Source: Natrinema salsiterrestre
GTDB taxonomy: Archaea > Halobacteriota > Halobacteria > Halobacteriales > Natrialbaceae
Reading direction: 5' to 3'
DNA length: 64,000 nt
Assembly (NCBI RefSeq): GCF_029502005.1
Contig: NZ_JAMQOT010000002.1
Location: 558,001-622,000 of the forward strand
The notes under the pieces: generated by a model
What the model was told of the DNA's origin: nothing
The model's input: only the letters and a program-made list of their open reading frames with translations
Database searches by the model: none
Made by a program: the position numbers and the translations under genes
Shown: piece by piece, positions 21,083 through 53,822 of the stretch
Layout of the letters: each line of letters begins with the position of its first letter
Position numbering within the stretch: position 1 is the stretch's first letter

Positions 21083-21280
21083 GTGCGATCACCCGCTGTT
21101 GCTCCTGAGAGGGGACTGAAACGAGCGTTCGAGACTGTGATTCGACGGCGTGATCTCGTCTCCTTCATAAACGAGCGGTCTTCCGGGAAACGCTAAAACT
21201 AGCGGATTCGGTGTGGGGATCCCATCGCGTCCCCGCGACACAGCGCGGGCCACCGCCGTGAGTCACCGTCGGTTGCGAGC
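21083..21280. other. intergenic region left of the tandem repeat
   Basis: These 198 bases lie between the glycerate kinase start and the first repeat unit. A TTTATG sequence on the minus strand at 21162-21171 may be part of the kinase promoter. A small inverted repeat, CGCTA/TAGCG, flanks AAAAC at 21191-21205. No coding frame is convincing. Confidence 0.35.
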
Positions 21281-21652
21281 TCAGTCGTGCTTGAACGACC
21301 GCTGTCCCGTAAACGCCATCGCGGCATCGACCTTTTTCTCGTCGGGTTCGCTCGCTCCGCTCGCTCGCCCTCCTCGAAAAATCTCGACCAAAAAACCGCT
21401 CGCTCACTCCGTTCGCTCACGGCCGTTCCACTCTCGCCCTCGAGTTCAGTCGTGCTTGAACGACCGCTGTCCCGTAAACGCCATCGCGGCATCGACCTTT
21501 TTCTCGTCGGGTTCGCTCGCTCCGCTCACTCACCCTCCTCGAAAAATCTCGACCAAAAAACCGCTCGCTCACTCCGTTCGCTCACGGCCGTTCCACTCTC
21601 GCCCTCGAGTTCAGTCGTGCTTGAACGACCGCTGTCCCGTAAACGCCATCGC
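21281..21652 (-). repeat. 165-bp tandem repeat (2.25 copies) carrying the 3' end of the purine gene
   Basis: Units start at 21281 and 21446, with a 42-bp partial third copy at 21611-21652 that is the genuine end of the purN-AICAR transformylase gene. The two full units differ at only two bases. Each begins (minus-strand reading) with the last 13-14 codons and the TGA of that gene (TGQRSFKHD-stop). About 123 bp follow, with the haloarchaeal motif GAGCGAACGGAGTGAGCG and a poly-T tract on the minus strand (GCGGTTTTTTGG). The period is 55 codons exactly. The poly-T tract may act as a terminator after each copied gene end. Confidence 0.85.
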
Positions 21653-40758: not shown

Positions 40759-40969
40759 TGGCCGGAAGCGGACTCCGAGCAACGCGAGGAGTCCGCGATC
40801 CGGGGGAGGGCAGGCCGTCACCCAAAACTGACCGCGAGCGAACGAAGTGAGCGAGCGGGCCGACGACCGATGTGGAAGGCGCTCTCGAGCGCCTGGAACG
40901 GAGGGAGGAGTGCTTTTGATCGAAATTTTGCCGAGGGCCAGCTCTGCTGGCCCGCAGAGCAAAATTTCG
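40759..40969 (-). repeat. dispersed 3'-end repeat with covarying hairpin, copy A
   Basis: This 211-bp element abuts the stop codon of tfs (40970-40972) and shares most of its length with copy B at 52202-52412. Read on the minus strand it begins with a hairpin: CGAAATTTTGC pairs with GCAAAATTTCG over 11 bp, and an inner GGGCCAGC/GCTGGCCC stem of 8 bp closes a 3-nt loop. It continues ATCAAAAGCACTCCTCC, then CGCTCACTTCGTTCGCTCGC, and ends near GGAGTCCGCTTCCGGCCA. The hairpin followed by A/T-rich and pyrimidine tracts could terminate transcription from tfs, or mature into a small RNA. Confidence 0.8.
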
Positions 40970-41278
40970 TTAGTTGTCGTCCTCGCGCCACTTGTGCTCG
41001 CACTCGGTGCAAATGAAAAAGCGGGTCTCGGACTCGTCGGCCGAGCGGATCTGTTGCATGTACCAGTGGGCGCGGTCGTTGCCGCACTCGGGGCAGATGG
41101 CGTCGGTCTCGGGAAGGGACGTCTCGCCGGAGGACTCGATGATCTCGCCGACTTCCTGATCGTCGGTGACGGTGTACTGGGCCGCATCGCCTTTCGGCTC
41201 CGTGTAGCCGCAGCTGCCACACTCCCAGACGCCGTCCTCGGCTTTCATCATCGAACCGCATTCGTCGCAGAATTCCAT
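40970..41278 (-). CDS. tfs: transcription factor S
   Basis: The 102-residue protein has two zinc ribbons: CDEC/CGSCG near residues 4-24 and CPEC/CTEC near 62-94. Between the second pairs lies RSADESETRFFIC, which holds the Asp-Glu dipeptide that stimulates RNA cleavage by stalled archaeal RNA polymerase. The stop codon directly adjoins a structured 3' repeat. It lies downstream of the DUF5789 gene, 87 nt away on the same strand. Confidence 0.93.
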   Translation of the reverse strand: MEFCDECGSMMKAEDGVWECGSCGYTEPKGDAAQYTVTDDQEVGEIIESSGETSLPETDAICPECGNDRAHWYMQQIRSADESETRFFICTECEHKWREDDN

Positions 41279-44369: not shown

Positions 44370-44873
44370 ATGACGCTCTCGGAGGAGGCCAAGGACCGGT
44401 TGGCGGACGTGGTGGAGCTACAGCCGACGAAGAATTCCGAGCTCCAGGACCGATGGGAGATGGACAGCGGCAGCGAGGTCCACCAGTACCTCGAGAACGA
44501 ACTCGGCGACTACTACTTCCGGGACGACAACAGCCTGATCCGGGCGACCGCGGAGGCGGCCGACCTGGTCGACGTCGAGCCGGGACTGGTCAGCGATCCC
44601 GACGACGACGGCGTGCCCTCGAAGATTCGGGTCCCCGAATTACAGGCGCGGATCGTCGCGGTGCTGGCCGGCCCCGACGAGAGATCCGAGAGCGTCGTCT
44701 CGGTACTGCACAAGCTCCGGGACGAGTACGACGTCGATCCCGAGGCCGAAGACGTCCGCTCGGGCCTCCAGAGCCTGCGCCGCAAGGGCGTCGTCGAGGT
44801 CGAGTACCGCACCGTCCCGACGTTCCGGCTGACCGTCGAGCGCGACGACCTCGAGGTCGCCGTCTCCGACTGA
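44370..44873 (+). CDS. DUF5797-like protein
   Basis: The chosen start is ATG 44370 (MTLSEEAKDRLADVVELQP); a GTG at 44283 would add 29 residues overlapping the epoxide hydrolase end. The 167-residue protein has a winged-helix-like N-terminal part (TKNSELQDRWEMDSGSEVHQ), acidic linkers and a second helix-turn-helix-like region (DPEAEDVRSGLQSLRRKG) followed by a C-terminal strand. This is like the haloarchaeal DUF5797 family. A DNA- or RNA-binding role is possible but not shown. Confidence 0.75.
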   Translation: MTLSEEAKDRLADVVELQPTKNSELQDRWEMDSGSEVHQYLENELGDYYFRDDNSLIRATAEAADLVDVEPGLVSDPDDDGVPSKIRVPELQARIVAVLAGPDERSESVVSVLHKLRDEYDVDPEAEDVRSGLQSLRRKGVVEVEYRTVPTFRLTVERDDLEVAVSD

Positions 44874-44881
44874 CTACCGAG

Positions 44882-44928
44882 GTTTTTCCGCGAGTGGTTC
44901 GGCGCAGGAGAACCCGACGCGGAAAAAC
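44882..44928. terminator. bidirectional hairpin between convergent genes
   Basis: GTTTTTCCGCG (44882-44892) and CGCGGAAAAAC (44918-44928) form an 11-bp perfect inverted repeat. Inside, GGTTC and GAACC extend it as a second stem. The two ends carry A/T runs (TTTTT and AAAAA), so the hairpin could terminate both the DUF5797 gene and, on the other strand, the DUF5787 gene. The next 70 nt hold another short GGCCGA/TCGGCC inverted repeat. I saw no gene there. Confidence 0.55.
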
Positions 44929-45000
44929 GTCGATGAAAAAGGCCGACGGCTCGGCCTTCGGTCTCGCCGTCGGTGAACCGCTCGCTTCGCTCGCGGATGC

Positions 45001-52201: not shown

Positions 52202-52412
52202 TGGCCGGGAGCGGGCTCCGAGCACTGCGAGGTGCCCGCGACCCGGGGAAGGGCAGGCAGTTGCCCAGTAACGGACCGCGAGTGAGCGAAGCGAACGAGC
52301 GGGCCGACGACTGACCTGGAGCGAACGAAGTGAGCGGAAGGGAAGGAGGAGTGCTTTTGATCGAAATTTTGCCGAGGGCGCGGCTTCGCCGCGCCCGCAG
52401 CGCAAAATTTCG
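52202..52412 (-). repeat. dispersed 3'-end repeat with covarying hairpin, copy B
   Basis: This 211-bp element sits 3 nt after the stop of the geranylgeranyl reductase gene (52416-52418, minus strand) and aligns with copy A (40759-40969). It begins with CGAAATTTTGC/GCAAAATTTCG (11 bp), and its inner stem is GGGCGCGGC/GCCGCGCCC (9 bp), closed by a 3-nt loop. The inner stem differs from copy A's GGGCCAGC/GCTGGCCC but is again perfectly complementary. The end toward 52202 shares TGGCCGGGAGCGGG and ACCCGGGGAAGGGCAGGC with copy A. The 144-bp stretch up to 52057 holds only a promoter area. Confidence 0.8.
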
Positions 52413-52415
52413 GTT

Positions 52416-53822
52416 CTAGTACTTGGGCTCCGCCCCGGTCGTCTCGTAGACCTTCTCCATCAGTTCGTCGCGGCGGTCCTGCCAGCCCGCGAGGCCCTCC
52501 GGACTCGTCGGATAGTTCTCGTAGTGGGAGAGCAGTTCGTCGGCCCGGCGCTTGGTCTGGTAGAGGTTCCAGATGGTCCCCCAGTGGCCGCGGCTCTTGA
52601 CCAGCGCCTCGAGTTTGAGCTTGAGTCCGATGTCCGTGCTGCCGGAGTAGAGCGCCTCGGCGAGCTTGTCGCCGGGCATCGCGGCGAGTAGCCCCATCAG
52701 ATCGTCGACGTCGACGGCCGTCGAGAGGATGTTGTAGACGTCCAGCGCGGCGTAGCGCGCGCCGAAGTGGTCCATCACCTTCTCGTTGTACTCCCAGAGG
52801 GTCTCCTCGCCGTAGTCGCCGGTCTCGAGGGCCTCGATGGCGCGCTCGGCGGCGTACTTGCCGCCGTAGGCGGCGCCGGCGATGCCGCCGCCGGTCGTCG
52901 GGTTGACGTGGCCCGCGGCGTCGCCGATGGCCATGTAGCCCGGATGCACGGCGGAGTCGTAGGGTCGCCGGGTCGGCAGCGCCGCGCCGAGTTTGTCCTC
53001 GACCTCCGCGCCGTCGAACTCGGGGCGGTTCTCGAGGTCGCGCTTGAGGTCGTCGACGAGCTGCATCGGTTCCTCCGTCATCTGGAAACCGAGGCCGGCG
53101 TTGATCTCGGTGTCGGTCCGCGGGAAGTACCAGAGGTAGCCCGCGGCCCGCTCGGTGGGCTTGAAGACGAGCGCGTCGTCCCACTCGACGGGCTCCTCGA
53201 CGTGAACGATCTCGCGGTAGGCCGAACAGAAGTGGCTGTAGTCGACGTTCGTGTCGAACGTCGAGTCCGAAAAGTCGACGTTGTCCTGCAGGACGGAGAG
53301 CGAGCCCGCGGCGTCGATGACGATGTCCGTCTCGTAGGTCAGCGGATCGCCCTTCCGGATCGCGTCGACGCCCGTGACGCGGCCGTCGTCGGCCTGGACG
53401 ACGTTTTTCACGACCGTATCGTAGTGAAACTCGACGCCGACGTCCTCCGCGCCGTCGATGATCCGCCGGCCGTACTCCCAGCGGTCGATGACGGCGAGCT
53501 CGCCCGGGACCGGAATCTCGAGGACGGTGTCCTCCTGTGGAATCTCGAAGCGGCCGTGATCGACGCCCGTGTTGGTAAAGGCCGGCTCGAGTTTGGACTT
53601 CGGAATCGCCTCGGGGAAGGCGTCGGCACCCTTCAGTGCGTCCCCGCAAGCGATGTGGCCCGCCTCCTCCTCGTCTTTCCGCTCGAGGATGACGACGTCG
53701 TACCCCTCGCGGGCGATGGTCGCTGCGGCGTAGCACCCTGCGGTTCCGGCGCCGACGACGACCGCGTCCGGCGACTTGGTCCCGGTTGTCGCGGCGGCGG
53801 CCGACTGTTCCTGCGTACTCAT
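52416..53822 (-). CDS. geranylgeranyl reductase family FAD enzyme
   Basis: The start is ATG 53820-53822 (MSTQEQSAAAATTGTKSPD); the open frame beyond it is a different gene's antisense. The 468-residue protein has the FAD-binding VVVGAGTAGCYAAATIA, a dinucleotide-binding ILERKDEEEAGH, GDAAGHVNPTTGGGIAGAAY and the C-terminal helical region. Such enzymes saturate the geranylgeranyl chains of archaeal lipids or other isoprenoids. The acidic N-terminal tail is halophile-typical. The gene ends at repeat copy B, a possible terminator. Confidence 0.85.
   Translation of the reverse strand: MSTQEQSAAAATTGTKSPDAVVVGAGTAGCYAAATIAREGYDVVILERKDEEEAGHIACGDALKGADAFPEAIPKSKLEPAFTNTGVDHGRFEIPQEDTVLEIPVPGELAVIDRWEYGRRIIDGAEDVGVEFHYDTVVKNVVQADDGRVTGVDAIRKGDPLTYETDIVIDAAGSLSVLQDNVDFSDSTFDTNVDYSHFCSAYREIVHVEEPVEWDDALVFKPTERAAGYLWYFPRTDTEINAGLGFQMTEEPMQLVDDLKRDLENRPEFDGAEVEDKLGAALPTRRPYDSAVHPGYMAIGDAAGHVNPTTGGGIAGAAYGGKYAAERAIEALETGDYGEETLWEYNEKVMDHFGARYAALDVYNILSTAVDVDDLMGLLAAMPGDKLAEALYSGSTDIGLKLKLEALVKSRGHWGTIWNLYQTKRRADELLSHYENYPTSPEGLAGWQDRRDELMEKVYETTGAEPKY

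Follow-up and report, generated by a model that had tools for sequence, protein, structure and literature searches.

Bidirectional intrinsic terminators of bacteria carry an A-tract, a hairpin and a U-tract in that order on each strand. Archaeal termination is usually described as requiring a U-tract only, with no RNA hairpin. In a Haloferax volcanii reporter, a T5C sequence terminated 95% of transcripts (PMC7237163), and in M. maripaludis aCPSF1 needed at least two U4 tracts to bind efficiently (PMC8716108). Here we describe a multi-hairpin element of ~210 nt from Natrinema salsiterrestre, present as two copies, A and B, on the + strand of the 64-kb stretch of DNA that we analyzed (the window), and in ~25 copies in the genome. 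Its anatomy, its position at gene 3' ends, both of its sets of U-tracts, its covariation, its recurrence at the same genes across species and an excess of G-U pairs in its first hairpin can all be read from sequence. Taken together, they suggest that the element is probably a two-way, tail-to-tail transcription terminator built around one central hairpin, P5, that both directions share.

Anatomy of the element and its terminal hairpin

A sequence-only reading of the window had placed a hairpin, P5, at 40921-40969 (copy A) and 52362-52412 (copy B), and we found both at these positions, supported by pairing, covariation and folding z-scores. The outer arms, CGAAATTTTGC/GCAAAATTTCG, lie at 40921-40931/40959-40969 in A and 52362-52372/52402-52412 in B. 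They enclose the inner stems GGGCCAGC/GCTGGCCC in A (40935-40953) and GGGCGCGGC/GCCGCGCCC in B (52376-52396), each around a 3-nt loop. P5 folds strongly as RNA on either strand in both copies, with z-scores for A of -6.2 (+ strand) and -6.4 (- strand) and for B of -5.2 (+ strand) and -4.8 (- strand). The arm sequence occurs in four places in the window and in no others even at one mismatch (0.23 expected), and A and B are two of the three inverted repeats with arms of at least 11 and a spacer of 3-40 in the 64 kb, where random sequences of equal composition contain 1-2. The hairpin is not a stand-alone unit: repeat searches in the same genome showed that P5 is the last 49-51 nt of each element. 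The sequence-only reading had missed this longer element, the further U-tracts that face the gene from the other strand, and the recurrence at the same gene ends in related species.

The complete elements span 40760-40969 (A; R2+R1 matches) and 52203-52412 (B), and their parts follow one another on the + strand in the order P1, P2 enclosing P3, P4, linker, double U-tract and P5. P1 (40762-40803 in A, 52205-52246 in B) is a hairpin of the form CCGGG..CYCGG, CCGGA/TCCGG in A, in which a tandem G.A internal loop accompanies an inner stem of 9 bp; its covarying pairs are seen in 47 copies. In P2, GGGAGGGCAGGC pairs with GCCGACGACYGA and surrounds P3, which has the form CCGC-GA-GC-GA..GA-GC-GA-GCGG. 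In A, P2 (GGGAGGGCAGGC with GCCGACGACCGA, from the RNAalifold consensus) occupies 40804-40870 and encloses P3 at 40832-40858; in B (GGAAGGGCAGGC with GCCGACGACTGA) it occupies 52247-52314, with P3 at 52276-52302. P4, located by folding at 40871-40900 in A, differs from copy to copy. A purine-rich linker, GGAGGAGTGC, then leads from P4 to the double U-tract, TTTTnATCGAAnTTTT, which lies between the linker and P5 and reads TTTTGATCGAAATTTT in both A (40914-40929) and B (52355-52370). Three single-stranded stretches, GGGAGGGCAGGC, GGGCCGACGACYGA and GGAGGAGTGC, are highly conserved, and the 5' boundary is sharp: position +1 is G, and 49 of 50 copies have a pyrimidine at -1. In about one third of the copies in the genome the 5' domain is absent or substituted, and P5 and the U-tracts are retained there.

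Some copies depart from this layout in other ways. In two of them (L046 and L048; G000:C24:97274 and G000:C11:729547), another module, containing runs of T6, T5-6 and A6, takes the place of the stretch after P3, so that two double U-tracts follow one another. In L092 (G000:C24:97162-97233), P5 has been flipped where it stands and keeps its pairing, with the CCGAG and GCAGAG internal-loop motifs on swapped sides, as if inverted by recombination between its two arms; L236 (G027) has a P5 with a similar reversed internal-loop order or a symmetrised version of it. G.G mismatches recur in the outer stem of P5 (43 cells, with no C.C at those pairs). Two other candidates for what the element might encode were rejected on inspection. 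First, a small protein starting from a GTG after GGAGG (M-L-L-I-E-I-L-P), with nine codons seemingly conserved, is contradicted by hairpin lengths that shift the frame, and the constancy of these codons is explained by the U-tracts and stem. Second, an HDV-like ribozyme, prompted by the 5' GGCCGG boundary, does not fit the topology, as there is no P2 strand between the P1 arms.

Gene 3' ends and U-tracts

The earlier reading had put the hairpins at gene ends, and a larger sample agrees. In 84 of 105 copies, an ORF of at least 100 codons on the opposite strand has its stop codon between -6 and +10 nt from the end of the hairpin; at positions drawn at random from the same loci the figure is 6%. 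Among the copies that lack such an ORF are some at tRNA genes and at the SRP RNA. Element A adjoins the 3' end of the gene for transcription factor S (TFS; 40970-41278, - strand), the stop codon of which abuts the element, and element B adjoins that of a geranylgeranyl reductase family gene (52416-53822, - strand), with its stop codon (52416-52418) 3 nt from the hairpin. Most copies in the genome have 0-5 nt between hairpin and stop codon. The other adjoining genes there encode thermosome subunits, GyrB, the proteasome-activating nucleotidase Pan2, L16, aIF1A, the DNA polymerase II large subunit, EngB, MvaD, TbsP, TrkH and LarE, and are thus mostly housekeeping genes. At least 17 of 21 clusters of adjoining genes are common to at least one other genome, and the gene ends re-used across species include those of TFS, thermosome, GyrB, aIF1A and L16 as well as tRNAs and the SRP RNA. 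At the TFS 3' end, several other families carry modules of the same layout with unrelated hairpin sequences.

On the gene-sense strand, a run of at least four T starts 4-10 nt past the stop codon in nearly all of 85 copies. In A this U4 lies 5 nt past the TFS stop codon (40961-40964, - strand), and in B right after the reductase stop codon (52404-52407, - strand); both read AAAA on the + strand. Only two of 42 gene-like ORFs in the window have such a run within 25 nt of the stop codon, one of them TFS itself. Thus, the gene side has what is expected of an archaeal U-tract terminator, namely at least four T in the gene sense just downstream. A single tract is present on the gene-sense strand (96 of 105 copies). 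On the + strand, 94 of 105 copies carry two runs of at least four T, with a distance of 7-8 nt in 92 of them, matching the double U4 of aCPSF1/FttA-type terminators. P5 is flanked by U-tracts that face each other, and on each strand the U-tract comes before P5.

The double tract also occurs more widely. The pattern TTTTnnTCnAnnTTTT (two U4 tracts, 8 nt apart) is found 37 times in the genome and 0 times in a reversed control; it is strongly enriched in many Halobacteriales, and shows no enrichment over control in most genomes outside the order. Where double-tract sites had 1.5-kb flanks, 15 of 30 lay between convergent genes; for comparison, convergent pairs make up 9 of the 51 pairs of neighbouring genes in the window. 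Close double runs of at least four T occur five times in the window, in A and B and on the - strand at 44940, 21560 and 21395, and all five have the same TCGA-type internal spacer. Across 105 copies, the first and last bases of the TTTTnnTCnAnnTTTT spacer are associated (G with A or C, C with G, A with A or T). T6 comes directly after P3 in one related family, which also has T6C past the stop codon on the gene side. A related module, TTTTTCATCGACGTTTTT plus hairpin (44882-44940, - strand), lies between convergent genes ending at 44873 (+) and 45001 (-); it is the third inverted repeat in the window with arms of at least 11 bp, and has the double U-tract layout too. Two related double U-tracts, TTTTTTGGTCGAGATTTTT (21377-21560, - strand), lie in the sense direction downstream of purH. 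The purH end (...AMAFTGQRSFKHD*) and the terminator-like hairpins downstream of it are tandemly duplicated in a 165-bp unit (21250-21640, - strand), leaving three copies of the gene-end sequence and two of the double U-tract module.

How might a two-way module work? A polymerase leaving the adjoining gene would meet a U4-U6 tract 4-10 nt past the stop codon and may terminate there. A polymerase arriving from the other side would transcribe P1-P4, a folded leader, before reaching a pair of U4-U6 tracts spaced by 8 nt, where it too may stop. These tracts could be read by aCPSF1/FttA or by the polymerase itself. The GC-rich P5, between the opposing U-tracts, would act on both strands, either as a barrier or, in read-through RNA, as a hairpin at the 3' end, and may strengthen the stop; archaeal terminators have, however, been reported not to need hairpins (PMC8716108), which is a point against this reading.

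Several observations count against the two-way reading. First, among the 25 sites in the genome, the left neighbour (called with a codon-usage score) points towards the element at 13 and away at 12, so that at about half of the sites the double-tract side would often face antisense transcription only. Where no gene faces the double tract, the module would guard against antisense transcription, or this side would have another role. Second, a terminator needs no conserved 110-nt folded leader. Third, the order at P5, with the U-tract before the hairpin, is the reverse of that in a bacterial intrinsic terminator. Finally, a few plasmid copies lie away from annotated gene 3' ends. Elsewhere, pairs of elements stand back to back a few hundred bases apart (L238/L239 at G027:C1:345284 and 345598, L232 and L222), an arrangement that would follow if two adjacent gene ends have one element each.

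Covariation, strand preference and the history of the copies

In 15 copies of P5 from the genome, 97.4% of cells are paired, with 21 double-change cells compared with 5.2 after shuffling (0/500). Among 99 distinct copies from 8 genomes there are 223 double-change cells, compared with 55 in shuffled alignments and at most 40 when pairing partners were slid by 1-3 columns. Because related sequences can mislead, we also ran simulations in which every column evolved on its own along a FastTree tree and underwent as many changes as observed; this tree-aware null predicted 36±14 double-change cells, and none of 300 simulations reached 223. The sequence-only reading had proposed that the structure is under selection and had named a covariation test with many more copies as the way to check it. 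The paired substitutions proved significant, both in the genome and in the larger set, and the proposal stands. Its more specific argument, that the inner stems of A and B differ yet pair as a result of compensatory change, is right about the pairing and only partly right about the origin, as some differences are whole-hairpin exchanges.

P1 covaries as well, with 95 double-change cells in 47 copies compared with 29 after shuffling (maximum 41). At orthologous sites only, 18 of 44 variable positions in its inner stem are double changes that are still paired. A G-U pair on one strand is an A-C mismatch on the other, and so an excess of G-U indicates which strand acts as RNA. For P1, the + strand has 44 G-U and 8 A-C, and within the genome 15 and 1 (p=0.0005), pointing to a + strand RNA; mutational strand bias could contribute to this signal. 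P5 shows no strand preference in a model-based alignment (18 G-U, 18 A-C), as expected if it serves both strands. It is possible, and we suggest it only tentatively, that P1-P3, ~110 nt with tandem-GA helices and strand-specific G-U covariation, represents a new structured archaeal RNA class that acts in transcription towards housekeeping 3' ends, perhaps as a docking site for a termination factor or by making RNA polymerase stall. If so, RNA structure would assist termination in a domain of life in which terminators are generally regarded as independent of structure.

The same strand signature raises the alternative that the element is a structured non-coding RNA family, in which a + strand RNA of ~200 nt (P1-P4 plus a U-tract terminator) acts in trans or as an antisense to the gene that it faces. 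The strand-specific conservation expected of a stand-alone small RNA is present in P1 and absent from P5, and the sharp 5' boundary and the highly conserved single-stranded stretches would also suit such an RNA. However, the AT profile is flat upstream of P1 in 50 copies, with no TATA-like enrichment at about -26, which led us to reject a small RNA with its own promoter. Moreover, the 5' domain is the part that is lost or substituted while P5 and the U-tracts stay, and a trans-acting RNA would not need contact with another gene's stop codon at ~25 orthologous sites. We therefore regard this alternative as unlikely. Of the three functions offered by the earlier reading, a terminator, a 3'-end signal and a small RNA, position and U-tracts favor the terminator; for the small RNA there is the strand signature of P1, and no promoter was found.

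The distribution of copies bears on a second alternative, that the element is a REP/BIME-like or other miniature mobile repeat that inserts at gene 3' ends to no benefit of the host. A P5 covariance model has matches in 30 of 59 sampled Halobacteriales genomes, at 1-36 each (palindromic sites can score on both strands), and a search of 120 genomes of the phylum gave matches in Halobacteriales only and none outside the order. Clear matches to a P1-P3 model are found in the genus of the window, its sister genus and one further family, the others being marginal, and exact-pattern matches in named genomes are restricted to Natrinema species. Full-length median identity is 0.77 between orthologous copies and 0.75 between paralogous copies within the genome; for the P5 region it is 0.79 for orthologs, 0.75 for paralogs in the same genome and 0.72 for unrelated sites in different genomes. 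From these sequences, we infer that the copies evolve mainly by hairpin cassettes swapping between sites, which would make orthologous copies hardly more alike than paralogous ones, and the identities fit old sites that keep their structure while exchanging cassettes. The element also occurs on megaplasmids. Three plasmid copies (L266, L268 and L269, from Haloterrigena, Halomontanus and Natronorubrum) share a different upstream flank, agtacaggcggag, with no annotated gene 3' end adjoining, and a fourth, L267, sits immediately ahead of dnaJ and has the same orientation as that gene.

A mobile repeat would account for copies that are dispersed, palindromic, extragenic and mosaic, with a sharp 5' boundary, swapped cassettes, a P5 flipped in place and a presence on megaplasmids. 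Yet full-length identity between paralogs peaks at 0.90 across five genomes of the genus to which the window belongs, and no recent transposition is seen there. The sites are orthologous across species, the spacing to the stop codon is fixed within a few nucleotides in most copies of the genome, and U-tracts and pairs are kept despite diverging sequence. The core motif was not found in 2.9 million viral contigs, which also led us to discard a virus-borne element. A mobile repeat thus seems improbable. Least plausible of all, and in our view very unlikely, is a DNA-level element (a cruciform, a supercoiling or gyrase site, or a part of chromosome architecture, cf. E. coli BIMEs) at housekeeping gene ends, which would explain the lack of strand preference in P5, its location downstream of such genes and the flipped P5 that is still paired, but not the clear preference of P1 for G-U on one strand or the directional U-tracts, the most constant feature.

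Comparison with known systems

The element can be set beside four kinds of described system. Rfam families resemble the element in combining a covarying RNA fold with conserved single-stranded motifs. No family in Rfam 15 reached its gathering score in the window, however, and relaxed E-values gave no relevant match for seven copy-bearing loci. Among the open-access literature searched, which cannot prove absence, we found no paper describing the element. The REP and BIME repeats of enterobacteria and pseudomonads (PMC2817692, PMC3733652) are, similarly, extragenic palindromes downstream of genes, mosaic and multicopy. REP, BIME and REPIN sequences are present as more than 100 palindromes of 20-40 bp, whereas the element has ~25 copies of ~210 nt with several hairpins; unlike them, it is kept at the same genes across species, has no near-identical copies and contains U-tracts.

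With bacterial bidirectional intrinsic terminators, the element shares a single inverted repeat between transcription units that serves both strands. It differs in that the U-tract precedes P5 on both strands, and the bacterial order is resembled only by P3/P4 followed by the U-tract on the + strand. Thus, the element is not a bidirectional terminator of the bacterial type, nor a REP/BIME family, nor a known Rfam RNA.

The closest likeness is to archaeal U-tract terminators (PMC7237163, PMC8716108), which have in common with the element a U4-U6 tract right past gene ends (in related families a C often comes next), and to the double U4 terminators of aCPSF1/FttA (PMC8716108), with two U4 tracts on one strand. 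What sets the element apart from archaeal U-tract terminators is that its tracts stand tail-to-tail around a covarying GC-rich hairpin, that it has a conserved folded leader and that it forms a dispersed sequence family. It provides a large natural set of gene ends, common to several species, in which hairpins beside U-tracts are kept by compensatory change, and so a testable set of sites for asking how the archaeal polymerase and aCPSF1/FttA stop convergent transcription and why a folded leader is present. The TTTTnnTCnAnnTTTT spacing rule could serve to annotate haloarchaeal transcript ends, and ready-made two-way terminators would help haloarchaeal genetics. To judge by its sequence, the element would work like the archaeal U-tract terminators on the gene side and, on the + strand, like their double-tract form.
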